Shown here: positions 6,922 through 35,999 of the stretch, one piece after another | Layout: the number at the start of each line of letters is the position of its first letter | Position numbering within the stretch: position 1 is the stretch's first letter | From: a virus | Length of the DNA: 36,102 bases | IMG/VR virus record: IMGVR_UViG_3300009180_000111 | Span: 1-36,102 of that record | Direction: 5' to 3' (one strand) | The notes under the pieces: model-generated | Told to the model about the DNA's origin: nothing | The model's database searches: none | What the model saw: the letters and a program-made list of their open reading frames with translations, nothing else | Position numbers and translations under genes: made by a program

Positions 6922-8433
6922 ATGGCGCAAGTACCTAGTGGAACTAGATTTATAGGAATAGCAACGACAGCGGATTTAGTTGAAAGAAAATCTGCTGTAC
7001 TTAATAAACAAACAGAACCTTATACTATTGAGGATATAGCGTCTAGCGTTACTACAGCTTCGCAAGGACCTCAAGGTGTTCCAGGTATACAGGGAATACA
7101 GGGTATCCCTGGTACTGCGGGAGCAGTTGGTCCAGCTGGATTAACTTGGAGATCAATATGGGTGTCAGGTACATCTTATGTAGCTAATGACGCAGTATCA
7201 TACGATGGTGCATCTTGGTTTTGTATTTTGGCAACTTCAGGAACTACTAATCCTTCTACTGATACAACACACTGGGCCTTATTAGCTTCTCAAGGAGCTC
7301 AAGGTATTCAAGGAATTCAAGGAATTCCAGGACAACAAGGTATTCAAGGTATTCAAGGATCTCCAGCAGCTCAAACATTACAAGAAACAGTTGACTTAGG
7401 TAATACCATTAATGACGGTTCCTACATCACTACTATAAGCTCTACTGAAATTTCAAATCAAAAAATTTCAGGCGCAACTACTTCTACATTTAGTTATGAA
7501 GGTTTAGCTTTTTCAAAAAATGGGTTTATATCTAGACTTTATCCTGCTGATACATTAACTGGGAACTATTTAGTTAGATTACCAAACGCCTCAGGAACTA
7601 TTGCTTTAACAAGTGATATGACAACTCCTACATTGCAGCAAGTAATTACTGCGGGAAACTCCTACACATTGGCAGGTTATAAAACAACTATATCAACTGG
7701 TGTTGTTTCTGTAGAAACAGTTGGAGGAAATAAAATTTCTTTATATGATAATTCTATTCAATTTAAAAGTGTACCAGCAGGTCCTTACATTGAATTAAGT
7801 CTACCAATTACTCCATTAACTGGCAGTAGAAGTGTTTATTTACCAGACGCTGATGGTACTGTTGCTTTAACAAGCGATATAACTCTTCAAAAGGCGGTAA
7901 CTGGTGGAAATAATTTTGTTAGTGGTTTTTCTAAAATAACATTAACAGGTATAGTTACAGTTGAGAACACATCTCTTTTAAGTAAGTCTACTTTAGAACA
8001 TAATAAATTATCGTTTACATCAAACAATAGTGGGTTAAAAACAACTAACTTAAGACAGTCTTTAACCCCAACTGTGAATAGGACTATTACTTTACCAGAT
8101 GCTGATGGTACTGTTGCTTTGAAAAACTATAAATCATATGTAGCATTAATTACTCAGTCTGGAACATCTGCTCCTACAGCTACTGTTGTGTTTAATGATA
8201 CTGCGGCTACGTTTACATGGAGTTATGATGATGTAGGTTCTTATTTTGTTACTTGTTCTAGCCCTATATTACTAAGTGGAAAGACTGTAGTATTTGTTAC
8301 TACTCAAGGTAATCCAGGAAATAGTCAAAATAAAATTTTTGGAGGTACAAGATCTAATGATTCTACAGTTAGTTTATTTACAAGTACTAATGGAATATTA
8401 GATTTAAATCTAGAAATCAGAGTTTACAATTAA
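6922..8433 (+). CDS. Modular fibre protein with collagen-like repeats (head or tail fibre)
   Basis: 503 aa. Residues 1-47 form an anchor-like segment (ERKSAVLNKQTEPYTIEDIA at 21-40). Gly-X-Y collagen-like blocks lie at 48-73 and 124-147. Between them, residues 74-122 resemble a CBM5/12-type carbohydrate-binding fold (Trp-rich, SYVANDAVSYDGASWF). Three ~80-residue repeats follow (153-234, 238-319, 322-401), each starting LQ(E/Q/K) and ending in a variant of LPDADGTVALTSD. The C-terminal domain (403-503) is shared with the mini-fibre at 316-768 and ends in EIRVYN. It is probably a trimeric fibre that binds host surface sugars. Its place between portal and scaffold resembles head-fibre genes of crAss-like phages, so head attachment is as likely as tail attachment. 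Confidence 0.8.
   Translation: MAQVPSGTRFIGIATTADLVERKSAVLNKQTEPYTIEDIASSVTTASQGPQGVPGIQGIQGIPGTAGAVGPAGLTWRSIWVSGTSYVANDAVSYDGASWFCILATSGTTNPSTDTTHWALLASQGAQGIQGIQGIPGQQGIQGIQGSPAAQTLQETVDLGNTINDGSYITTISSTEISNQKISGATTSTFSYEGLAFSKNGFISRLYPADTLTGNYLVRLPNASGTIALTSDMTTPTLQQVITAGNSYTLAGYKTTISTGVVSVETVGGNKISLYDNSIQFKSVPAGPYIELSLPITPLTGSRSVYLPDADGTVALTSDITLQKAVTGGNNFVSGFSKITLTGIVTVENTSLLSKSTLEHNKLSFTSNNSGLKTTNLRQSLTPTVNRTITLPDADGTVALKNYKSYVALITQSGTSAPTATVVFNDTAATFTWSYDDVGSYFVTCSSPILLSGKTVVFVTTQGNPGNSQNKIFGGTRSNDSTVSLFTSTNGILDLNLEIRVYN
7378..8124 (+). repeat. Three in-frame ~80-codon repeats in the fibre gene
   Basis: Repeat units cover residues 153-234, 238-319 and 322-401 of the fibre. Each ends with a strongly conserved Leu-Pro-(Asp/Asn)-Ala-(Asp/Ser)-Gly-Thr motif. 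At DNA level the ends of units 2 and 3 are nearly identical (for example GCTGATGGTACTGTTGCTTT in both), so copy number could change by recombination. Confidence 0.75.
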
Positions 8434-22482: not shown

Positions 22483-25400
22483 ATGTTACAGAGACCTAAA
22501 AATAACCCGTCTGGATTAAATGATGAAAATCATAAACAATTAATTTCTGAACTAACTAAATACGCTCAAGAAGGAGCATCTGATGATGATCTGAAGAAAT
22601 TCAAGGAAACATTTATAGCTCAAAAAAAAAAGTCCGTATCACAGCCTACTTCTCAAAAAAATGTATTGGCATCCAAACCAAAACAGAATGTAACATCTAC
22701 TTTATCGGTTACAGAAGAAACTCAGGCTCCTGCGGAATCGGATGGTTTAGGTGGACCACCTAAAATGAAAACTTTTACTGGACTTACACCTGAAGAACAA
22801 CAAACTCTTCAGGCTAAACCTGTTATAAAGGTTTCTAAATCTTCTGAGTTAATAGGTAAAAGATTAAAACTACAAAATGAATTATCAAAAATAAAGGTTA
22901 CTCCTCAAAACCAAGAGGAGATATCTAGAAAAACAGATGAGTTATCTTCTGTGATTTTTGAACAAGATCTTATTGACTATAGTAGATTATCTGAAATAGA
23001 GAATCAATTTAAACAAGCTAAGAATGAAGAGGCTGTAGATTTAGAAGCTAATAAAAGACTTGATGATTTACTTACAACTACTGGTATTTGGAATAATGTA
23101 AAGGCAACATCATTAAATGCATATAATACTTTAATAGATCAAGCAGCATCTATTACGGATGAACCTGGTATAAAAGAATTTAAGGCTGATATAGACCCCT
23201 TATCTGAAGAAAAAAAAGAAGTAAAAAAGGATGCTGCTATTAAAAAAATTAAGTTAAATGATGATCAGATAAACGAACTTGCAAAACAATTATATAAAAA
23301 CAAACAAGTTAACTATATTGAGACTGATAATATAAACTCTTTTTTAGATAATCTTAATGAAGATGATAAAAATTTATTAAAACAATCAAGAAAACAAACA
23401 GCAGAACACCTTCAAGAAAGTAATTTAAAAGAGGAAAAAATTATAAATGCATACGAAGTTATAGGTAACAAAAAAATAAAGGAATATAAAAATATAGAGA
23501 ACCAGATTCTTAATTATAAAAATTCAGGATTACAAATACCAAAAAATTTGTCTGATTCTTATGTTTCATTAGGTCAAGAAATAATAGGTATTGGTTCTGA
23601 TATAAAGAAAAGACAAGATATAATTAATAAAAACAAATCAGACTTAGGTACTGCACAGCAAGAATTTGATTTACTTAAAAGACAGTACGGAGATGTAGAA
23701 AATTTTTTATTAAATACTGGTATCGCAGCTAGAGAGTTAGGTGTAGGTATAATAAGTGGATTAGACTATTTAGGATCTAGAACAAGTCCTTTAGCTGGTT
23801 TACCTAATGTGCAACTTCAGAGAAAAATAATAGATATAAACAAAGGATTAGAAGAGGAAAGAAGTAATTTAAGAAAATCAGTAGAAAGTGTTGAAAGTCC
23901 TGAAGGATTTTTAAATTATGTTTCTGATGTAATGTCTAATCAAATACCTAATTTAGTTGCTACATCTACTGGTGCTGGAGGACTAGGTATTATAGGGTTA
24001 TCTAGTACTGGTCAAAAGTATGCAGACATGAATAAAGAAGTTCTTGAAGGAAAGGCTTCTTATTCTCCATTGCAGATGGCTTCTGCTCCTTTATTATATG
24101 GAGCTGCTGAGGTAGTGTCTGAATTACCTACACTATCTATATTAAAAAAAGGAGGAAGAGTTTTTGAATCTATAGTTAAAAATGAAAGTGATTTAATAAC
24201 TAAATCAGCAAAACAAAAGGCTAAGGAATGGGCTAAGGACTGGGGTATTGATACATCAAAAGAATTAGCTGGTGAGGAGTTTACTAATTTTGCTCAAAAC
24301 TTTAACGATAAATATGTTTTAGGTAAAAAAGATGTTGGTTTATTAGATAACACTGGTACAGTATTTAAAGATACGTTTACTTTAACTAGTATACTAAAGG
24401 CAGCTCCTCATGTTGCTGGAGCTATACTTAAGCCTTTACAAACAAATAAAGATTTAAATGTATTAGATGAGAATTCAAGAAAAATAATACAGTTCTCTAA
24501 ACAATTAGAAGATGAATCTTTAACTGATGTAGAGAAATCTGTTATAAAAAAACAGATAGATAAAGCAACAGTTGAGAATTCAACTATATTAGCAAACACA
24601 ATCGAAAAGGTAAACAACATGCCTGATGATGTTTATAAGAAAATAATTGATTTAAATAATAAAGCAGCTGAAATTAAAACAGATGCTTTTGATATAAACA
24701 ATGGAACACTTCCAAATAAAGAAGAATTAATTAAAGATCTTCAACAAGAATATAAAACTATACAGGAAGATAGATCTTCGCTTATAGATGCTAAATACGA
24801 ACCTGTTGAGGTAGTTGCTACAGAAGTAATCTCTCCAGAGACATCATCAAACTATGCTAACCTTACAGAGGATAAGGATGGTAACTTTGTATTCTTCCAC
24901 GTTGGAGGTAAGGGTTATGACAAGATAAACAAGTCCACTGGAGGCACCACTGCTACCTCTAAGGAGGAGGCTGGAGCATTAAGCAAGGTAGGTGGTGTAG
25001 CTATGTACTATACCAAGCCAGAGGATAGCGAAAGGATGGTTAATGGTGAGGCTAAGTACGCTGTATCCATTGCTAAAGACAAGGTGTATGATGCCAATAC
25101 CGATGCTAACAACTATGCTGAACAGGCTAAGACTCTTCACGAAGAGGAGAACCCTGGTAAGGCGTTTGATGCTAACAGTAAACTAGCTTACATTACTAAG
25201 ATAGCTGGTGAGAATGGTTATGATATGGTAGTATCTGAGTGGATGGGTAAGACTAGAGCTCAGACCACCACAGAGTTTGCTCCTACTGATGTTCAGTTAA
25301 AGGAGGGTGATAAAATATCTAAAGCCTTTGATCAAGAATATAGAAGTAATACTGATAAGGGCTATAAGGCTATTATACCAGACTCTAAGGACGCTAAATT

Positions 25401-28400
25401 AAAAGCTGTTTATGATCAAATTTATACTGAAAAAAACAAGGTAAATGAGTATGATGATCTTTATAGATTATCGTCTCAGGAAGCCGCTACAATAAACCAA
25501 GACGAGGTAACTAAACTTATCGAAGAGGATAAAACATTATCTCAAGAGACAAAGGATATGTACGCAGAGGCTTTGGCTTATGAGCCAGGACAGAGACGTA
25601 CTGAATTACCAGTAGAAACTCAGTTTGAATCTCATAAAAAAAATGGAGGATCTACATTCTTGGCAAACGGAGAAAATAAGGCAGGATCTGACGCCTCTTC
25701 TGTGTCTATATTTACAGAGAGATCAAAGATAATTGATGGAGAGATTACAGAAAAAGATATAAATGATTTCAAGGAAGCCAACAAAGATTTATTTGAAGGT
25801 AACGAAGATATACTTGCTATTGGTACTTGGTATGATGCTAAGTCTGGAAAGACTTATATAGATGTATCTGCTGTTGTACCAAATGAGCAAGCAATAAGAC
25901 TTGGTAAGCAGTACAATCAAAAGGCTGTTTATAATTTAAAAACAAACGAAGAGGTAGATACTGGAGGTACTGGTGAAGCTATTGAAGGATTGAAGCCAGA
26001 GATAGATAGAATTAATGATATTAGAGAGATACTAAAACCAACTGCTGCTAAATCTAAACTTGCAGCATTTAAGGCTAAGTATATTGATAAACCAGTTTAC
26101 GATAGAGCTAAACTAGATACTCAGGTTGAGAATGCTAAGAAGTCATTATCTAAGATACTACCTAATGTCAAGTTCGTAGTACACGATACTGAAAAATCTT
26201 ATGAAAATGCTACAGGAGAGTCTGGATCAGGAGGTATGTATATAATGTCTTCAAATGGAGATAAGGTAATACATGTAAATTCTCAGAAAGCAAACGGAAG
26301 GACTGTTGCGCACGAGGTATTTCACGCTATTATATTAGATAAAATAGGTGGAGATAAGTCAGTACAAGATATAACTAAGAGAATGGTAGATGCTGTATAT
26401 AAGACAGCAAGTCCTGAGCTAAAGGATGAGCTAGATGCATTTGCTTCAAGGTACACAGACAAAACAATTAGAGATGAAGAAAAATTAGCAGAACTTATTG
26501 GTATAATGGCTGATGGATACCCACAGATGTCAGCAGCTAATAAGAGTGTAATTAAAAAATGGTTAGACTCTTTAGCTAAAATTTTTGGACTTAAGCCATT
26601 TACAGACAATGAAGTCATAGACTTACTTAACGTAATAGCTTCAAACGTATCTACTGGAGATGTTATTCTTGATGAAAAAGTTAGTATTCTTGGGTACGGA
26701 AGTGTAGAAATAAAAAAAGATATAAAGAGAGAGAGCAAGTTTATAGATTCTCTTATATTTAATAGGTTTCCAACAAACAAAAATACTAAGGTAATAGAGA
26801 ATTTCGATCTGTCAAAGATAAATGGCCAGGTTGCTGGATCCACACTTTCAGATAAGTTGACCGCTGGAGAACTTAAAAAATATAAGACTGTAGATGGAGA
26901 AGATGTACTTGAATCAGTATATACATTCTTAGGAGGAGTTGGTTATCCAGAAGTAACAGGATATGTATGGGCAGCATCTGAAGAGAGTGGGGTCAAAAAA
27001 ATAATTGATACTATGAAGGTTAGCTCTGACGGATACAGGTACTTAATACCTGCCGTTATGTCTAATGTATCTCATATGTCAAATAAGAATATGACTTCAA
27101 TTACTATGGAGGTGTTCAAGGAGGCTATTAACAATAAAGAATTAAACAGGGATACATTTAAAAAAGTAATACTAAAGGCATTCGATAAAAAAGAAGTTAA
27201 AAGATTTAAAGAAGGAGCTACAAAGGCTATATCTGGTAATATATCTGCTATAGATATGGCAGATAAATTGAGAGATTATGTTATCTCAAGCAAGATGACT
27301 TTTGAGTCTAGAAGAGGTCTATTAGAAGGAATGGTAGGTAACTCAGAGGCTGGAAATCCAAAGTTTTCTACAGTTGGAACATTCTTAAGTTTAGCTAAAT
27401 CTTTAACTGAGCCTATAGCAAAGGACGCTGAATTATATCAGGTGCCAGTTGTAATAAGAACAAAGGGTAACCTTACTCCAGTAAAAACAAATAAAGAAGA
27501 TAAGTTCTATCATGAGTCATACGGATATCATATAGAGTCTGACCAAGAAATAGAGGTGCTTCATTTAGATGGTGTATACAATTTAACAGATATAATACCT
27601 GAATTTACAAAGGAGGACGGAACCACTGTATCTACAGAAAAAGAATTAAAAGAAAAGGGAGCAAAGGGATGGGACATAAAGAGAATACTTACCAACCTTG
27701 GAAGGACTCACGGACTATCTAAGTACTCAGCAGAAATTGTATCTAAGAAAAGATCACAAGAATCTGAGAGTTACTCAGACATGAAGGATATTGTTAAGGA
27801 TATGATCGATGATGGTATGTCCATTACAGAGATCAAAAAAACTATAACTAGTGAGTTGGGTGCTGATCAGGTTTCATTAGCTGAGAGAGCCTATAATGAG
27901 CTTACAACGGTTAAAGAAGAGGTGGTTGCTACCAACGATACTGAAGCATTTAGAGATAAGGTTAAGGACCTACCAAAGTCTGGTATAGTTGGAAAGTACT
28001 TGAGTGGTGAGACCATAGAAACTGTTGAAGGTGAGGCTCCACGTAACGCTCAAGAGACAGAGGTTATGTCTCTTATTGATGCTGGTATGCACGGTAAGGA
28101 AACTGTTACCATGGCTAAAGAAGTTTTTGGAGACAAGTACATTGAAAAAACACTTGAGTTCTTAGATACTGCTAACCTAAAACCTCACGAGAAGGCTGTG
28201 CTATATGTTTCGTTAGAGAATGAAATGTTTGATAGAGTTAATGCAGAGCCAGATAACGTAGGATTGAAGAAGTTACAGGATCTAGTTAGAGCAAAATCAC
28301 AACAGTTCTTAAGAGAGTCTTCACTTGCTATAAACGCTGGTAGATTAAGAGCTATAATGAAGGACGGATTTAACTACGAAGCAGTTACAGATAAGTTCCT

Positions 28401-31053
28401 ATCAAGCGATCAGTTAAGAGATAAGAAGGCTGTAGAGAAGGCCATTCAGTCTGATACTAATGCAATCCAGAAGGAGTACGAGAGTATAGTTGCTGAGTCT
28501 GACTTGGAACAAATGATACTTAGTGGTGTTGAGAAACAGGTTAACGAGATCTATAAAAAATTACCTACAGCAAGAAGAGCAAAGGCAGATAAGGCTATTG
28601 CTGCTCTTGAAAAGATACAGAATAAGTTAAGAGGCAAGGCTTACGATGCTACCATTGGAGTTCCAATTGCTCTTATCGACTCTAGTATAACTATTATAAA
28701 GAACTCTATCAAGGCTGGTGTTAGTATAGCTGATGCTATCGAGATAGGTATCAATCATATAAAGGAGAGGTACGGTAATAACTGGGCCAACGAAGATATG
28801 TTCAGAAAGGATATGACCGAAGGTTTTAAGACTGAGGGTATATCTGAAAAGGAAATAAAAGCCAAGGAACTATCTAAGAAGGAGATAGTGAAACAAGCCC
28901 TTATAGATGCTGGATTTGGTAAGGAGATAACAGTAAAGACTAAAGAAGGTAAAGTAAAACGTGATGTACTTGACTGGAAGAAACTTGCTGGAGAGGAAGG
29001 AAGTGTAGATAAGATAAGAGAGAATGTAGAGGGAATAATAGGTAAGGAAGCTGCTAAGGAATTAGAGGACGAGTACAACAACCTTAGAGCTAGTATTATT
29101 GAGAAGTCTCTTAATGAGTTAGAGAATAGAAACACTCCAAGAAAGAAGGTAGATCTAAAGACAAGCGCTAAAAAGTTAGCAGAGCTTTACAACTATGGTC
29201 TATTTGAAAAGGAGTCTGACACCTACGATCGATTAATAAATACTGCCCTTGGTATGAACCAACTGGATCAGAAAAGTTTTGACGAGGCTAAGTCTTTAGC
29301 TAAGAGCTTGTCTGAATTGTTCTCTCAAGAGGATAGCGAAGGAAATAAACTAAGCCAGGAGTACTTAAAGTATGCTGAGAGATCTATAAATAAAAAAATA
29401 GAATCATTATTAAGTAAGGTTGCATGGTCACAATCAAATGGAGCCTACAAGGCTGTTGTGGTTGCTAAAGAGTTCATTGGTTTAGCACAAAGAAATGCGT
29501 TAGTATCTGTAGCTCAGGCTATTGAGAACACAACTTCTGGATATATCTCTAGAGCATTTAAGAAGATTGGATTTATGTTTGATAATGTAGATACAAAAGA
29601 AATGAAGGCTTCTAGAAACAAGTTAGCTAGGATGACCTTTAAGGATATTACATTAAACGGAGGTCTTGAGTTTGGTGATGTTACATCTCCATTCATTACT
29701 AAAAGTAAGACAATGGATTTAATTATTAACGGTAGTGATAGCAGACTATACCATGCACTAACATCTACAGCTCTTGGTAAACCATTCCTAGAGTCTGCCG
29801 ATAGTATGCACAAGGCTGCGCTTGCTCAAGGATTCTTCCATTACAACCTAATAAAGATACTTAGAAAGAAGGGTATGTCTAAGACAGAGGCTAAGAACTA
29901 TGTTTCAGAACAACTAACTGGACAGTCTTTTGAGGATGCCTTAGTTACTTCTAAACAGATCATTGATAAGATAAATGAGAATGCTGGTAAGAAGGTAATC
30001 TCAGACTCTAAAGAAAGTGTCTACAGGTTCGCAAATGACTTGGTTAATGAGGCTTTAGTTCAGGGCAATAAAATTACACTACAGGAACTTGAGGCTTCTT
30101 TAAAGTCAGCTGAGACTGTTGCTGGATTCGAACTAGGTCATGAACCAAACAACATTATATCTAAACCATTAAACCTATTCAACTCTTGGGTACAGACCAG
30201 AACAGATAGAGCTGTTAAGGAGAAGAAGTGGAACGATGCTGCTGCATTAACTGCTGCGTCAATAGTTACAACAAATATACTTAACCCTTACGTTGGAGGT
30301 GGTACTAACTGGACGTTATTAGCAGCTCAAAAGGCTGGTATACCTACACTAAGTACCATATACTGGAACATTAAGTCTAGAGGAAGTAAGCTTGACTTAA
30401 GTTCAGAGGAAGGAATGAAGAACCTTGAGAAGGATCTTAAGTACCAGTTACTGGCTAAGAACGCTAACGCTAGAATGTTTATTGGAGCTGCTGTAACTTT
30501 AGCTGCATTTGCATTAGCTAGTGCTACTGGAGCTGATGATGATCTGTACGAGTGGTTAGAGAAGAATACTTGGGCTAAAAAGTATATGAAGAAGATGAAT
30601 CCTCCAGCTGTACAGTTTATGTTAGCTCAGAAGGATCAAAAGCTTGGAGAGTTCTTAGGCCAGCAGATGAATATAAAGGCAGACGCGTTTGATGAAGGTA
30701 AAAAACTTCAACAGGCACTGAAGAATGCCGCATCTGGTAAAACACAGAAGGCTTTAGGAGGTGCTGGTCAGCTAGTTGGAAGTAGATTATCTACGCCTAT
30801 CATACCTTGGAGAGTGGTTAGGGATGTTCGTGATATCTATAGAGGATTGAATGGACTGCCAGCTATAGAATACGACTACAAGTCTAGTGGATTTGGAAGT
30901 GGATACTTCCAGGGAGGAATGGTAGAACAGCTAGGACTAAGACCTGAGAATGTAAATGATACCGAAGGAAATAGAGGATCATCTGGAAACAGAATGTCAT
31001 CTGGAAATAGAGAGGCTTCTGGAAGCAGAAGTCAGAGTGGCAGTAGAGATTAA
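22483..31053 (+). CDS. Giant polyvalent internal/ejection protein with ART-like and zincin domains
   Basis: 2856 aa. Residues 1-400 are Lys/Gln-rich coiled coil. Residues 400-560 contain hydrophobic Gly-rich stretches (GIAARELGVGIISGL at 412-426; GGLGIIGLSSTGQKY near 500; LLYGAAEVVSELP near 540). Residues 797-945 resemble an ADP-ribosyltransferase fold: FFHVGGKGYD with H806, GVAMYYTKP with Y842/Y843, and TTTEFAPTDVQ with E931. Residues 1190-1375 carry a zincin metallopeptidase motif, HEVFH at 1277-1281 with a likely third ligand E1337. Residues around 1650-1690 and 1900-1960 (SSLAINAGRL) look like polyvalent-protein modules. A membrane-like helix lies at 2663-2684, and the tail is a Ser/Gly/Asn/Arg repeat. 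By position it corresponds to T7 gp16: packed in the head and injected with DNA. Host-modifying activities are inferred. Confidence 0.75.
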   Translation: MLQRPKNNPSGLNDENHKQLISELTKYAQEGASDDDLKKFKETFIAQKKKSVSQPTSQKNVLASKPKQNVTSTLSVTEETQAPAESDGLGGPPKMKTFTGLTPEEQQTLQAKPVIKVSKSSELIGKRLKLQNELSKIKVTPQNQEEISRKTDELSSVIFEQDLIDYSRLSEIENQFKQAKNEEAVDLEANKRLDDLLTTTGIWNNVKATSLNAYNTLIDQAASITDEPGIKEFKADIDPLSEEKKEVKKDAAIKKIKLNDDQINELAKQLYKNKQVNYIETDNINSFLDNLNEDDKNLLKQSRKQTAEHLQESNLKEEKIINAYEVIGNKKIKEYKNIENQILNYKNSGLQIPKNLSDSYVSLGQEIIGIGSDIKKRQDIINKNKSDLGTAQQEFDLLKRQYGDVENFLLNTGIAARELGVGIISGLDYLGSRTSPLAGLPNVQLQRKIIDINKGLEEERSNLRKSVESVESPEGFLNYVSDVMSNQIPNLVATSTGAGGLGIIGLSSTGQKYADMNKEVLEGKASYSPLQMASAPLLYGAAEVVSELPTLSILKKGGRVFESIVKNESDLITKSAKQKAKEWAKDWGIDTSKELAGEEFTNFAQNFNDKYVLGKKDVGLLDNTGTVFKDTFTLTSILKAAPHVAGAILKPLQTNKDLNVLDENSRKIIQFSKQLEDESLTDVEKSVIKKQIDKATVENSTILANTIEKVNNMPDDVYKKIIDLNNKAAEIKTDAFDINNGTLPNKEELIKDLQQEYKTIQEDRSSLIDAKYEPVEVVATEVISPETSSNYANLTEDKDGNFVFFHVGGKGYDKINKSTGGTTATSKEEAGALSKVGGVAMYYTKPEDSERMVNGEAKYAVSIAKDKVYDANTDANNYAEQAKTLHEEENPGKAFDANSKLAYITKIAGENGYDMVVSEWMGKTRAQTTTEFAPTDVQLKEGDKISKAFDQEYRSNTDKGYKAIIPDSKDAKLKAVYDQIYTEKNKVNEYDDLYRLSSQEAATINQDEVTKLIEEDKTLSQETKDMYAEALAYEPGQRRTELPVETQFESHKKNGGSTFLANGENKAGSDASSVSIFTERSKIIDGEITEKDINDFKEANKDLFEGNEDILAIGTWYDAKSGKTYIDVSAVVPNEQAIRLGKQYNQKAVYNLKTNEEVDTGGTGEAIEGLKPEIDRINDIREILKPTAAKSKLAAFKAKYIDKPVYDRAKLDTQVENAKKSLSKILPNVKFVVHDTEKSYENATGESGSGGMYIMSSNGDKVIHVNSQKANGRTVAHEVFHAIILDKIGGDKSVQDITKRMVDAVYKTASPELKDELDAFASRYTDKTIRDEEKLAELIGIMADGYPQMSAANKSVIKKWLDSLAKIFGLKPFTDNEVIDLLNVIASNVSTGDVILDEKVSILGYGSVEIKKDIKRESKFIDSLIFNRFPTNKNTKVIENFDLSKINGQVAGSTLSDKLTAGELKKYKTVDGEDVLESVYTFLGGVGYPEVTGYVWAASEESGVKKIIDTMKVSSDGYRYLIPAVMSNVSHMSNKNMTSITMEVFKEAINNKELNRDTFKKVILKAFDKKEVKRFKEGATKAISGNISAIDMADKLRDYVISSKMTFESRRGLLEGMVGNSEAGNPKFSTVGTFLSLAKSLTEPIAKDAELYQVPVVIRTKGNLTPVKTNKEDKFYHESYGYHIESDQEIEVLHLDGVYNLTDIIPEFTKEDGTTVSTEKELKEKGAKGWDIKRILTNLGRTHGLSKYSAEIVSKKRSQESESYSDMKDIVKDMIDDGMSITEIKKTITSELGADQVSLAERAYNELTTVKEEVVATNDTEAFRDKVKDLPKSGIVGKYLSGETIETVEGEAPRNAQETEVMSLIDAGMHGKETVTMAKEVFGDKYIEKTLEFLDTANLKPHEKAVLYVSLENEMFDRVNAEPDNVGLKKLQDLVRAKSQQFLRESSLAINAGRLRAIMKDGFNYEAVTDKFLSSDQLRDKKAVEKAIQSDTNAIQKEYESIVAESDLEQMILSGVEKQVNEIYKKLPTARRAKADKAIAALEKIQNKLRGKAYDATIGVPIALIDSSITIIKNSIKAGVSIADAIEIGINHIKERYGNNWANEDMFRKDMTEGFKTEGISEKEIKAKELSKKEIVKQALIDAGFGKEITVKTKEGKVKRDVLDWKKLAGEEGSVDKIRENVEGIIGKEAAKELEDEYNNLRASIIEKSLNELENRNTPRKKVDLKTSAKKLAELYNYGLFEKESDTYDRLINTALGMNQLDQKSFDEAKSLAKSLSELFSQEDSEGNKLSQEYLKYAERSINKKIESLLSKVAWSQSNGAYKAVVVAKEFIGLAQRNALVSVAQAIENTTSGYISRAFKKIGFMFDNVDTKEMKASRNKLARMTFKDITLNGGLEFGDVTSPFITKSKTMDLIINGSDSRLYHALTSTALGKPFLESADSMHKAALAQGFFHYNLIKILRKKGMSKTEAKNYVSEQLTGQSFEDALVTSKQIIDKINENAGKKVISDSKESVYRFANDLVNEALVQGNKITLQELEASLKSAETVAGFELGHEPNNIISKPLNLFNSWVQTRTDRAVKEKKWNDAAALTAASIVTTNILNPYVGGGTNWTLLAAQKAGIPTLSTIYWNIKSRGSKLDLSSEEGMKNLEKDLKYQLLAKNANARMFIGAAVTLAAFALASATGADDDLYEWLEKNTWAKKYMKKMNPPAVQFMLAQKDQKLGEFLGQQMNIKADAFDEGKKLQQALKNAASGKTQKALGGAGQLVGSRLSTPIIPWRVVRDVRDIYRGLNGLPAIEYDYKSSGFGSGYFQGGMVEQLGLRPENVNDTEGNRGSSGNRMSSGNREASGSRSQSGSRD
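30967..31050 (+). repeat. Low-complexity SSGNR-type repeats at the end of the giant protein
   Basis: The last 28 codons encode imperfect repeats of (Ser/Gly)-Ser-Gly-(Asn/Ser)-Arg: GNRGSSGNRMSSGNR then EASGSRSQSGSRD. The DNA repeats TCATCTGGAAA(T/C)AGA. This is a disordered, basic tail, possibly DNA-contacting or a packaging tag for the head. Confidence 0.75.
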
Positions 31054-33609: not shown

Positions 33610-33834
33610 TTATTTATTTCTTTTAACAAAACCTACAATATTTCCTTTTTCATCTACAATGTCGTTATATAACCCAAGTTCCTCATCACTATTAATTATC
33701 TCAATGATGTGGTTTTTTTGTTTACACTTATCACAGAATAATTCTTCAGTCTTTGGACCTGTAGATATTATAGTTCTACAACCATTGCAGAGCATTGCTC
33801 CTCTACCATTATTAAATTTGTGTATTGGTTCCAT
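33610..33834 (-). CDS. Zinc-ribbon protein
   Basis: 74 aa with two CxxC pairs, LCNGC (C16, C19) and FCDKC (C34, C37), 14 residues apart, typical of a zinc ribbon. It is preceded by NNGRGAM. The C-terminal part (40-74) is acidic then basic (NIVGFVKRNK). Small zinc-ribbon proteins of this kind are frequent in phage early operons and may bind nucleic acid or host proteins; no target is known. It overlaps the upstream gene by 23 nt. Confidence 0.75.
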   Translation of the reverse strand: MEPIHKFNNGRGAMLCNGCRTIISTGPKTEELFCDKCKQKNHIIEIINSDEELGLYNDIVDEKGNIVGFVKRNK

Positions 33835-34690: not shown

Positions 34691-35167
34691 TTAACAATTC
34701 ATCCTTACAATAGCACTTATGCGCTCAAACATCAACTCCTCTTTTTCTTCTGGGATCCTATCTATAAGTTCGTGGAGTCTACTTACACTTCTCATCGATG
34801 TTATATGATCTGTAAGCTCCTTAACCTTCATATCTAGGAGTATGTTATTATATCTTAACTTACTAAGCTCTGAGTCATCCATAGAGTCATACTCATAGTG
34901 GTGTATCATGTGCATCACATTGTTGTAGTTCCTCCTTAGGTCCTCACTGTAGCTTGCCCATATATCAAAGTTCTTTATGCTATGTAGTATGGTGGCGTGG
35001 TCCTTGTTGACTGTGTCAGCGATAGACTGTAGCGTCATACCTAGCACATCCCTTAGTATCTTGTAGTACAGGGCTCTTATCTCTACAAAGTTTCTCTTTC
35101 TGGATACAATATCTACATCGATCCCTGTCTCTAGCTGTATTATTTTTTTAAATCTTTCTGGTGTCAT
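34691..35167 (-). CDS. Stand-alone DnaA domain IV (DnaA-box-binding) protein
   Basis: 158 aa. Residues 10-70 match DnaA domain IV: VSRKRNFVEIRALYYKILRD (21-40), MTLQSIADTV (44-53), then the signature DHATILHSIK at 56-65, equivalent to DHTTVLHA in DnaA. Host DnaA uses this domain to bind DnaA boxes. The AAA+ ATPase domain is absent; residues 75-158 are helical, with a coiled coil near 100-125. It may recognise a phage origin or occupy host DnaA boxes. The start overlaps the VRR-NUC stop by 4 nt. Confidence 0.8.
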   Translation of the reverse strand: MTPERFKKIIQLETGIDVDIVSRKRNFVEIRALYYKILRDVLGMTLQSIADTVNKDHATILHSIKNFDIWASYSEDLRRNYNNVMHMIHHYEYDSMDDSELSKLRYNNILLDMKVKELTDHITSMRSVSRLHELIDRIPEEKEELMFERISAIVRMNC

Positions 35168-35418
35168 GGGTATATCTTTCCTTTTATTGAATGTAGGCAG
35201 AATGCCTCAAATCCTTGTTTAATTAACTCGTCTATTCTGAACTCCTGAAGTGGCTTCAGTGTATCATTACCTTCCTTACACTCTATAAATAGAGCCTTAC
35301 CATCCTTGAAGCAGAACAGGTCTGGATAACCATTAACACTAAGCTTTATAGTGTTGATAACTATCCATCCGTTTGCCTCGTAGTGCTTCTTAATCTTCGT
35401 TTGAAACTTAGATGCCAT
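35164..35418 (-). CDS. VRR-NUC domain nuclease
   Basis: 84 aa, a single minimal nuclease domain. Motifs: QTKIKKHYEANGW (6-18), GYPDLFCF (30-37, catalytic Asp 33), FIECKEG (44-50, catalytic Glu 46 and Lys 48) and PLQEF with Gln 58. This is the PD-(D/E)xK-type VRR-NUC fold, seen in phage and plasmid Holliday-junction or flap nucleases. It lies next to the DnaA-like gene, consistent with a DNA replication or recombination role. It overlaps the upstream gene by 11 nt. Confidence 0.85.
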   Translation of the reverse strand: MASKFQTKIKKHYEANGWIVINTIKLSVNGYPDLFCFKDGKALFIECKEGNDTLKPLQEFRIDELIKQGFEAFCLHSIKGKIYP

Positions 35419-35608
35419 CTATTTCTTGTTTAACTTGTTGCCAAAAATAATATCTTTCTCTGCCATATCTTTTAGTTTTGTTTGATAAGTGATCGTTTAA
35501 CATTTCGTTGACTACTTTTAAAGCGCACTGCTTTGCTTTCTCGCTATCTCCAATTATGTCTCTAACAAATGAAAAATATAGGTGGAATGCTTTTTCTTGT
35601 GGTGTCAT
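35408..35608 (-). CDS. MTPxEKA family protein, copy 3
   Basis: 66 aa, third in direction of transcription of a tandem family. It starts MTPQEKAFHLYF, has AKQCALKVVNEML in the middle and ends FWQQVKQEIDGI. It is the most diverged of the three and carries an extra basic stretch (SNKTKRYGRERYY). Helical, no known function. Overlaps both neighbours. Confidence 0.7.
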   Translation of the reverse strand: MTPQEKAFHLYFSFVRDIIGDSEKAKQCALKVVNEMLNDHLSNKTKRYGRERYYFWQQVKQEIDGI

Positions 35609-35634
35609 AGGTTTTCTATTTCTTGTTTAACTTC
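35588..35634. repeat. 47-nt junction repeat, copy A
   Basis: This stretch spans the stop of copy 2 and the start of copy 3 of the MTPxEKA genes. It matches 35782-35828 with one mismatch (35611 G versus T). Confidence 0.85.
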
Positions 35635-35802
35635 CTGCCAAAATGGTTTCATTACTTCATAACAGTTTTTTAATATCTCATCAACTGCCATTATAGCACA
35701 AACCTTAGCGTCTTCCCAAGCTTCCTTATCATCCATTAAATTAGCCTTTAAATAACTGTAGTATTTTTTAAATAACTCTTCTGCTTTTTCTTGTGGTGTC
35801 AT
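35605..35802 (-). CDS. MTPxEKA family protein, copy 2
   Basis: 65 aa: MTPQEKAEELFKKYYSYLKA, core AKVCAIMAVDEIL, end FWQEVKQEIENL. It overlaps its neighbours by 4 nt on each side. Its start and end share nearly identical DNA with those of the other copies. No enzyme motif; a small helical protein of unknown role. Confidence 0.75.
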   Translation of the reverse strand: MTPQEKAEELFKKYYSYLKANLMDDKEAWEDAKVCAIMAVDEILKNCYEVMKPFWQEVKQEIENL

Positions 35803-35828
35803 AGTTTTTCTATTTCTTGTTTAACTTC
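35782..35828. repeat. 47-nt junction repeat, copy B
   Basis: Spans the stop of copy 1 and the start of copy 2; matches 35588-35634 with one mismatch. A shorter match (19 nt, TCTATTTCTTGTTTAACTT) recurs at 35418-35436 at the end of copy 3. Confidence 0.85.
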
Positions 35829-35999
35829 TAAATAAAACTTATCAATAGCCCAATTTTCTTCATCGCAATTAGATAAACCTAAATTTAAATCTAATATTTC
35901 ATCAACTGCTATTAATGCACATTTTTTAGCATCTATTAAAAATGCATCTACAGTATTAAACTTATATACTAAATCTTCTGCTTTTTCTTTTGGTGTCAT
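35799..35999 (-). CDS. MTPxEKA family protein, copy 1
   Basis: 66 aa: MTPKEKAEDLVYKFNTVDAF, core AKKCALIAVDEIL, end FYLEVKQEIEKL. First of three tandem paralogues, overlapping the gene before and after by 4 nt. Proteins with this start and a CALIAVDEIL core are familiar from Bacteroidota phages; function unknown. Confidence 0.75.
   Translation of the reverse strand: MTPKEKAEDLVYKFNTVDAFLIDAKKCALIAVDEILDLNLGLSNCDEENWAIDKFYLEVKQEIEKL

Follow-up and report, generated by a model that had tools for sequence, protein, structure and literature searches.

Lambdoid phages carry short conserved boundary (linker) DNA between their modules, which permits the exchange of unlike material. In diversity-generating retroelements and in invertible tail-fibre cassettes, a constant frame is combined with a variable insert. 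The HsdS subunits of type I restriction systems hold two recognition modules between conserved regions and recombine at these regions, and their modules also move between positions (domain movement), as described in PMC3077401. Diversification of phage proteins by shuffled fragments is reported by Smug et al. (2023; PMC10684548), where proteins of unknown function and accessory proteins are expected to hide unreported cases. The sequence test of that study accepts no aligned fragment shorter than 50 aa; it would thus be blind to the modules described here, which have about 16–20 aa and lie below domain size.

The widespread phage protein family considered here, PHROG_21441, is entered in its database as a single family of unknown function, and the entry says nothing on two-module exchange. 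No paper on module exchange, anchor peptides or phrog_21441 was found in a literature search that left subscription papers and bioRxiv largely uncovered. Each member is built as start anchor, V1, core, V2 and end anchor, where the constant blocks have the consensus MTPKEKAKEL (start), AKQCALIAVDEIL (core) and YWQEVKQEIEKL (end), and the variable segments have mean lengths of 20 aa (V1) and 16 aa (V2). As in HsdS, conserved regions alternate with two variable modules that are exchanged independently of each other. However, HsdS proteins are full-size DNA-binding subunits, whereas the members of this family are phage-borne and have about 66 aa, and the three copies analysed below lack a Pfam match; and unlike in HsdS, no module of the family was found at both positions, as none of 58,081 comparisons of V1 with V2 segments reaches a score of 40. 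We regard the likeness as an analogy of layout, not as homology. In contrast to the lambdoid linkers, one anchor of the three is internal to the gene, and each of them forms part of the protein fold. The difference from retroelements and invertible cassettes is that reverse transcriptase is absent and tyrosine recombinases are few in 36 records scanned, and that the protein is not apparently a tail protein. Overall, anchor-guided shuffling of two module libraries on one scaffold, with modules that are probably binding surfaces, appears to be the best explanation (probability about 0.75).

The starting point is the virus record IMGVR_UViG_3300009180_000111, which was analysed over its whole length of 36,102 nt (the window). 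A profile search assigns the terminase, portal and capsid-region proteins encoded on it to PHROGs 6681, 6547 and 13704. Near its end the following features are found:

35799–35999, minus strand: copy 1, 66 aa, PHROG_21441 match with E = 6.4e-11
Parts of copy 1, minus strand: start anchor 35999–35970; V1 35969–35931; core 35930–35892; V2 35891–35838; end anchor 35837–35802
35605–35802, minus strand: copy 2, 65 aa, PHROG_21441 match with E = 1.8e-8
Parts of copy 2, minus strand: start anchor 35802–35773; V1 35772–35710; core 35709–35671; V2 35670–35644; end anchor 35643–35608
35408–35608, minus strand: copy 3, 66 aa, PHROG_21441 match with E = 1.6e-8
Parts of copy 3, minus strand: start anchor 35608–35579; V1 35578–35537; core 35536–35498; V2 35497–35447; end anchor 35446–35411
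35782–35828, minus strand: junction anchor of copies 1 and 2 (end anchor, ATGA and start anchor), 47 nt
35588–35634, minus strand: junction anchor of copies 2 and 3, 47 nt
35164–35418, minus strand: gene of a VRR-NUC domain nuclease (PF08774, 3.4e-07), directly downstream of copy 3
34691–35167, minus strand: gene with a DnaA C-terminal (helix-turn-helix) domain (PF08299, 7.4e-08), next in the run after the VRR-NUC gene

An earlier note on this DNA had described three genes of about 66 aa with 4-nt overlaps and a common start, core and end. This description agrees with the reading frames of 66, 65 and 66 aa, which are joined by ATGA at both joins (35802–35799 for copies 1 and 2, 35608–35605 for copies 2 and 3), all begin with MTP[K/Q]EKA and all carry C-A-[L/I]-x-[A/V]-V-[D/N]-E in the core; the VKQEIE end is found in two of the three copies, while the third ends in VKQEIDGI. 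The junctions, said to be near-identical over 47 nt, are indeed 98% identical (46/47), far above chance according to the repeat finder, and the interiors have diverged as claimed, with 60% (copy 2) and 43% (copy 3) whole-protein identity to copy 1. Of the junction repeat, only the start segment is found at the first gene (at 35999; 31 nt, 94%). The end of copy 3 overlaps the start of the VRR-NUC gene by 11 nt, and this junction matches the array junctions at only 62%. No Pfam family above the cut-off was found for any of the three copies.

The VRR-NUC gene directly follows a family member in locus L004 too, and lies three genes after the member in phages P12024L/S. Among 147 of 150 listed neighbour proteins, scanned from 34 loci, the DnaA C-terminal domain is one of the commonest named neighbours of PHROG_21441 members in other phages (4/147), together with ResIII helicase (4/147) and N6/N4 methylase (3/147). 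The recognisable neighbours belong mostly to DNA metabolism, and a few are structural genes. The DnaA C-terminal domain protein of the window (34691–35167) is without the ATPase part. Elsewhere in the window, a 2856-aa protein (22483–31053) gave no confident Pfam match when searched in three pieces; it contains AHEVFHAI, which by eye resembles a metallopeptidase motif. A 503-aa protein (6922–8433) shows repeats of the collagen type (PF01391) and weakly matches a carbohydrate-binding module.

Loci on viral contigs were collected via the neighbouring nuclease (28), via the DnaA-domain gene (2) and via family alignment (80 kept of at least 494 confirmed), and further loci via two DNA patterns on viral contigs and from bacterial genomes (4 loci). 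The resulting 252 sources (the window and 251 loci), 21 of which hold no family member, comprise at least 296 family reading frames and at least 241 distinct proteins among the matches listed; the two numbers differ because some contigs were fetched repeatedly. The PHROG_21441 profile matches all three window copies and all of the 95 members scanned. Segments could be assigned in 293 of the 296 frames with HMM-based borders, which for V1 and V2 are approximate since they derive from a single HMM alignment. As the search for members went through the anchors and sorted the hits by similarity to the window, anchor-less members are missed. From 225 proteins about 167 V1 and about 170 V2 families were collected; the counts are still climbing, and the collected sets are far from complete.

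In bacterial genomes of the phylum of G003, phrog_21441 was found in one of 395, which is G003 itself, a carrier known beforehand; the family is therefore mainly phage-borne. The genomes behind L114–L117 all match phrog_21441 (4/4), by selection. A search of plasmids for the family gave no match. Members are present in ON968456.1 (L267:3501-3701) and OP947161.1, phages with a cyanobacterium (Pan5) and Rhodobacteraceae as their recorded sources; the other isolates that carry the family have Bacteroidota hosts, and these two lie outside that group. Frames that match only the core, V2 and end of the profile occur at G408:26718-26855 and G415:14847-14984, in the records of L012 and L013; they may be half-genes, or members whose N-terminal half is of another kind. 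Another small family, whose start (MTxxERAxxLxxKY) and end (W.EVxxEL) are related to those of PHROG_21441 but which is without the core, was seen at L126:2607-2807, L252:4207-4398 and L237:7102-7278. Its start motif occurs twice in L126 and in L252, and its proteins in these two loci have no Pfam match.

The 241 distinct proteins (among the matches listed) give 28,920 pairs, of which 147 share V1, 156 share V2 and 15 share both. The other segment is unrelated in 131 of the 147 V1-sharing and in 138 of the 156 V2-sharing pairs. Almost all multi-member V1 families are combined with at least two V2 families (34/37), and likewise V2 families with at least two V1 families (32/37), where families were formed by single linkage and the biggest V1 family chains unlike segments. 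Two complete squares were found, each with every one of the four pairings of two V1 families with two V2 families, and one of them includes copy 2 of the window. A half-shared partner exists for 159 of 237 members; for this count and for the totals of about 167 V1 and 170 V2 families both-sharing pairs were removed, and at thresholds of 40 and above the number of such pairs is zero by construction. In the window, the V2 of copy 1 is nearly identical to that of members in L010 and L034, whose V1 differs, and its V1 is its own. Copy 2 has a V1 common to seven members (L080, L253, L233, L235, L130, L169, L242) and shares its V2 with L087. Copy 3 shares V2, and not V1, with L004, L008 and L252.

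Homologous pairs of other reading frames of 55–100 aa, taken from these loci, served as a control. Given identity of 80% or more in one segment, identity in the second falls below 30% for 4.9% (n = 307) and 0.7% (n = 288) of control cases, and for 67.7% (n = 62) and 90% (n = 238) of family cases, where very short segments inflate the latter V2 figure. If the score threshold is relaxed, the other segment is unrelated in 397 of 1277 control pairs that share segment 1 and in 111 of 811 that share segment 2, hence general phage mosaicism or uneven divergence contributes partly. Among the control frames, a pair of small proteins (window 33610–33834 and L008:6463-6690) has a near-identical N-terminal part and an unrelated C-terminal part. 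Taken together, the family layout is fixed at three anchors, which are constant as protein and for the most part as DNA, and V1 and V2 form large, position-specific module sets that reassort between phages, a conclusion in which we have high confidence.

Modules shared by otherwise different proteins have a median DNA identity of 0.77 (V1) and 0.76 (V2), with pS of 0.5–0.6 and a pooled dN/dS of 0.16 (V1) and 0.20 (V2), and are under purifying selection. It might be argued that nothing has been exchanged at all, and that in a small helical protein unconstrained loops have drifted at unequal rates and resemble each other by chance. In the structure models the variable segments coincide with the ends of a helical bundle, where constraint is often low, which would suit such drift. 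However, shuffled controls reach the sharing threshold in only 0–0.01%, some shared modules have 94–100% DNA identity while the other half is unrelated, flanks are up to 99% identical around an unrelated interior, and the selection on the modules also speaks against it. The probability of this explanation is close to nil.

Swaps in place were sought among non-identical members with flanks of 150 bp that agree at 80% or more of positions on both sides, which gave 24 distinct pairs; 43 cases of identical proteins in near-identical flanks, probably mostly the same virus fetched twice, were excluded. Both modules are replaced in 14 pairs and kept in 4, and V2 is kept with V1 replaced in 2. The rest have a replaced V1 with an intermediate V2 (3 pairs) or a replaced V2 with an intermediate V1 (1 pair). 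At the DNA level, L119 and L161 show no difference as far as the start anchor, have unrelated V1 segments, and are near-identical again from the core on, and L113 and L235 follow the same pattern. L130 and L242 have V1 in common, and divergence begins in the core. In 23 recent pairs of each kind, the excess identity declines through the core away from the shared side, and the gradients of V1-sharing and V2-sharing pairs run in opposite ways. The core is a crossover zone, with identity breaking inside it; the exchange unit is often half a gene, and replacement of the whole interior between the end anchors also occurs.

Cultured phages show the same kind of change. P12024L and P12024S, which grow on the same host, are 96.9% identical in the upstream helicase and 98.1% over 3.2 kb downstream, and their members have identical start and end anchors and differ in both modules. 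That two phages of one host strain carry different modules argues against a simple rule of one module for one host strain. Between the Cellulophaga phages phi19:3 and phi13:2, V1 differs and V2 does not. The V1 of P12024L is related to that of L105 and L088, and the V2 of P12024S scores 41 and 39 against those of L181 and L224; the P12024 modules thus belong to the sets from which the metagenomic modules are drawn. For the modules of phi19:3, phi13:2 and Pan5 no partners above the threshold were found within the collected set. These isolates bear on the concern that metagenome assemblers switched genes at the conserved anchors and so produced chimeras. Most of the sequences are IMG/VR metagenome contigs, and the anchors are repeats that would permit such a switch. 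On the other hand, the swaps occur in complete genomes of cultured phages, the anchors differ by about 20–30% between members, mostly too far for k-mer joining, and the module joins are old, because the shared modules have diverged. Assembly chimeras, an extremely improbable explanation, were rejected in view of the isolates and of this divergence.

As to the anchors themselves, their codon use differs sharply from that of long reading frames on the same contigs, and the codon for one and the same residue varies by position: in the core, an alanine is GCA in 92% at one position and in 28% at another, and a glutamate is GAG in 58% and in 3%. Such site-specific codons bear out the earlier suggestion of a junction conserved as DNA, in that they fit anchors that are conserved, or recently related, as DNA. 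Near the start, codon choice could alternatively have a role in translation.

The earlier note spoke of a triplicated gene and of unequal recombination that could add or remove whole genes. In full, this explanation would be a local triplication of one gene in this lineage by unequal crossing over, after which the interiors would have diverged and gene conversion would have kept the junctions alike. The 46 of 47 identical positions, the variable copy number and a slight excess of anchor identity within arrays (0.788 vs 0.773 and 0.784 vs 0.762; permutation p = 0.04 and 0.012) may be read in its favour. However, in the 33 distinct tandem pairs not one V1 or V2 module is common to both neighbours, and arrays are therefore not recent duplicates. 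The module relatives of the window copies are found in other phages, not in their neighbours. The junctions of unrelated loci are almost equally alike: for the 33 tandem pairs, mean identity across 51 nt is 81% and the highest value 96%; the first junction of the window has 0.96 identity to a junction of L083 and 0.92 to its own neighbour junction. The likeness of the junctions belongs to the whole family and is not special to the window array. Local triplication as the main source of the array was rejected, since neighbours have no module in common, and we consider it improbable. Rather than as copies of one gene, a row is better described as differing module combinations that a uniform overlap links together.

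Counting copies in relatives had been suggested as a further test, and the number does vary. Among 40 fetched loci, picked mainly for long contigs, 35 of the long viral records hold one to four copies and five gave no match. In relatives of the window, L004 and L008 have one copy and L012 and L013 have two. The VRR-NUC protein of L004 is identical over the query, and the single copy there has the V2 of copy 3 but another V1. The 4-nt overlap is kept across relatives as well: in 115 members from loci fetched without a DNA pattern, the start is ATGA in 110 and the end is ATGA in 90. This terminal ATG opens a reading frame in 85 of the 90, which is another family member in 13 cases.

The shuffling favoured here would most likely proceed by ordinary homologous exchange at anchors of 30–47 nt. 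Co-infecting phages, and sometimes the copies themselves, would use the anchors as homology. A crossover in the core would swap half a gene, and crossovers in both outer anchors would swap the whole interior. ATGA at both ends would allow copies to be gained or lost within a translationally coupled row, which would explain why phages have one to four copies with unrelated modules. Scans for recombinases and reverse transcriptase covered 36 records (35 of the 40 long records, each with a family match, and the window). A recombinase common to the carriers was not found in these (Erf 3/36, RecT 2/36), and the exchange enzyme may be that of the host. PMC3945230 describes phage Rad52-like recombinases as accepting diverged homology.

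That one defined segment is replaced again and again while its ends stay constant is reminiscent of programmed variation, and a dedicated system may be thought of, either a DGR-like retroelement or a site-specific recombinase drawing on a module archive. Against it stand the scans, in which reverse transcriptase (PF00078) is found in 0 of 36 records and tyrosine recombinase in 2 of 36, where records may be fragments. Moreover, there are at most four copies per record and no archive, and the changes consist of unrelated modules replacing each other, not of point changes. We consider such a system very improbable.

With respect to function, an AlphaFold2 model of copy 2 (input of 95 members) shows three helices at residues 3–20, 25–46 and 49–64, with a mean pLDDT of 95.5. 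In the model of the L161 member, which has long modules, the ten-residue blocks that hold the anchors score 91–97, and blocks in the variable parts go down to 63–67. From the order of the helices, V1 and V2 would lie at opposite ends of an up-down-up bundle. Comparison with PDB folds gave generic helical bundles, the best being BsaWI (Z = 7.4, below what helical bundles may reach by common arrangement) and YvfG (Z = 6.3). The best BFVD matches are uncharacterised phage proteins, inclusive of the P12024L member. A sequence search of solved structures gave no match with E below 0.9. Of the PADLOC defence models searched with 95 members, 18 match one member each (best E = 3.7e-4), and none does so consistently.

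Since in these models the constant parts form the three-helix bundle and the variable parts its ends, we tentatively hypothesize that the protein may be a common scaffold with two exchangeable contact surfaces, which would probably bind strain-variable or fast-evolving components of the host or of rival phages. The same shuffling could also serve modules with one fixed job, such as mutual exclusion of related phages or evasion of an inhibitor that recognises the loops. That module identity differs between phages of one host strain, and that whole sets turn over on an unchanged scaffold, would agree with this, but the purifying selection seen within modules points to a separately maintained contact for each of them, and a single job seems rather doubtful. 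More speculative still, and in our opinion unlikely, would be a phage-wide role as combinatorial two-ended adaptors, in which each end joins one of many partners and rows of one to four face changing targets in hosts or rivals. It seems equally unlikely that, in such adaptors, both ends would be drawn from a shared environmental pool via the DNA-conserved anchors.

Based on this dataset, a 66-residue phage protein of unknown function is assembled from two exchangeable parts below domain size, and provides a concrete case of short DNA kept alike both inside and between genes. The precise exchange of unlike phage material, an old question, becomes directly testable here. If the modules are target-binding surfaces, the family would be a natural library of small binders, and cultured phage pairs that differ in one or both modules are a ready test of this binding idea.
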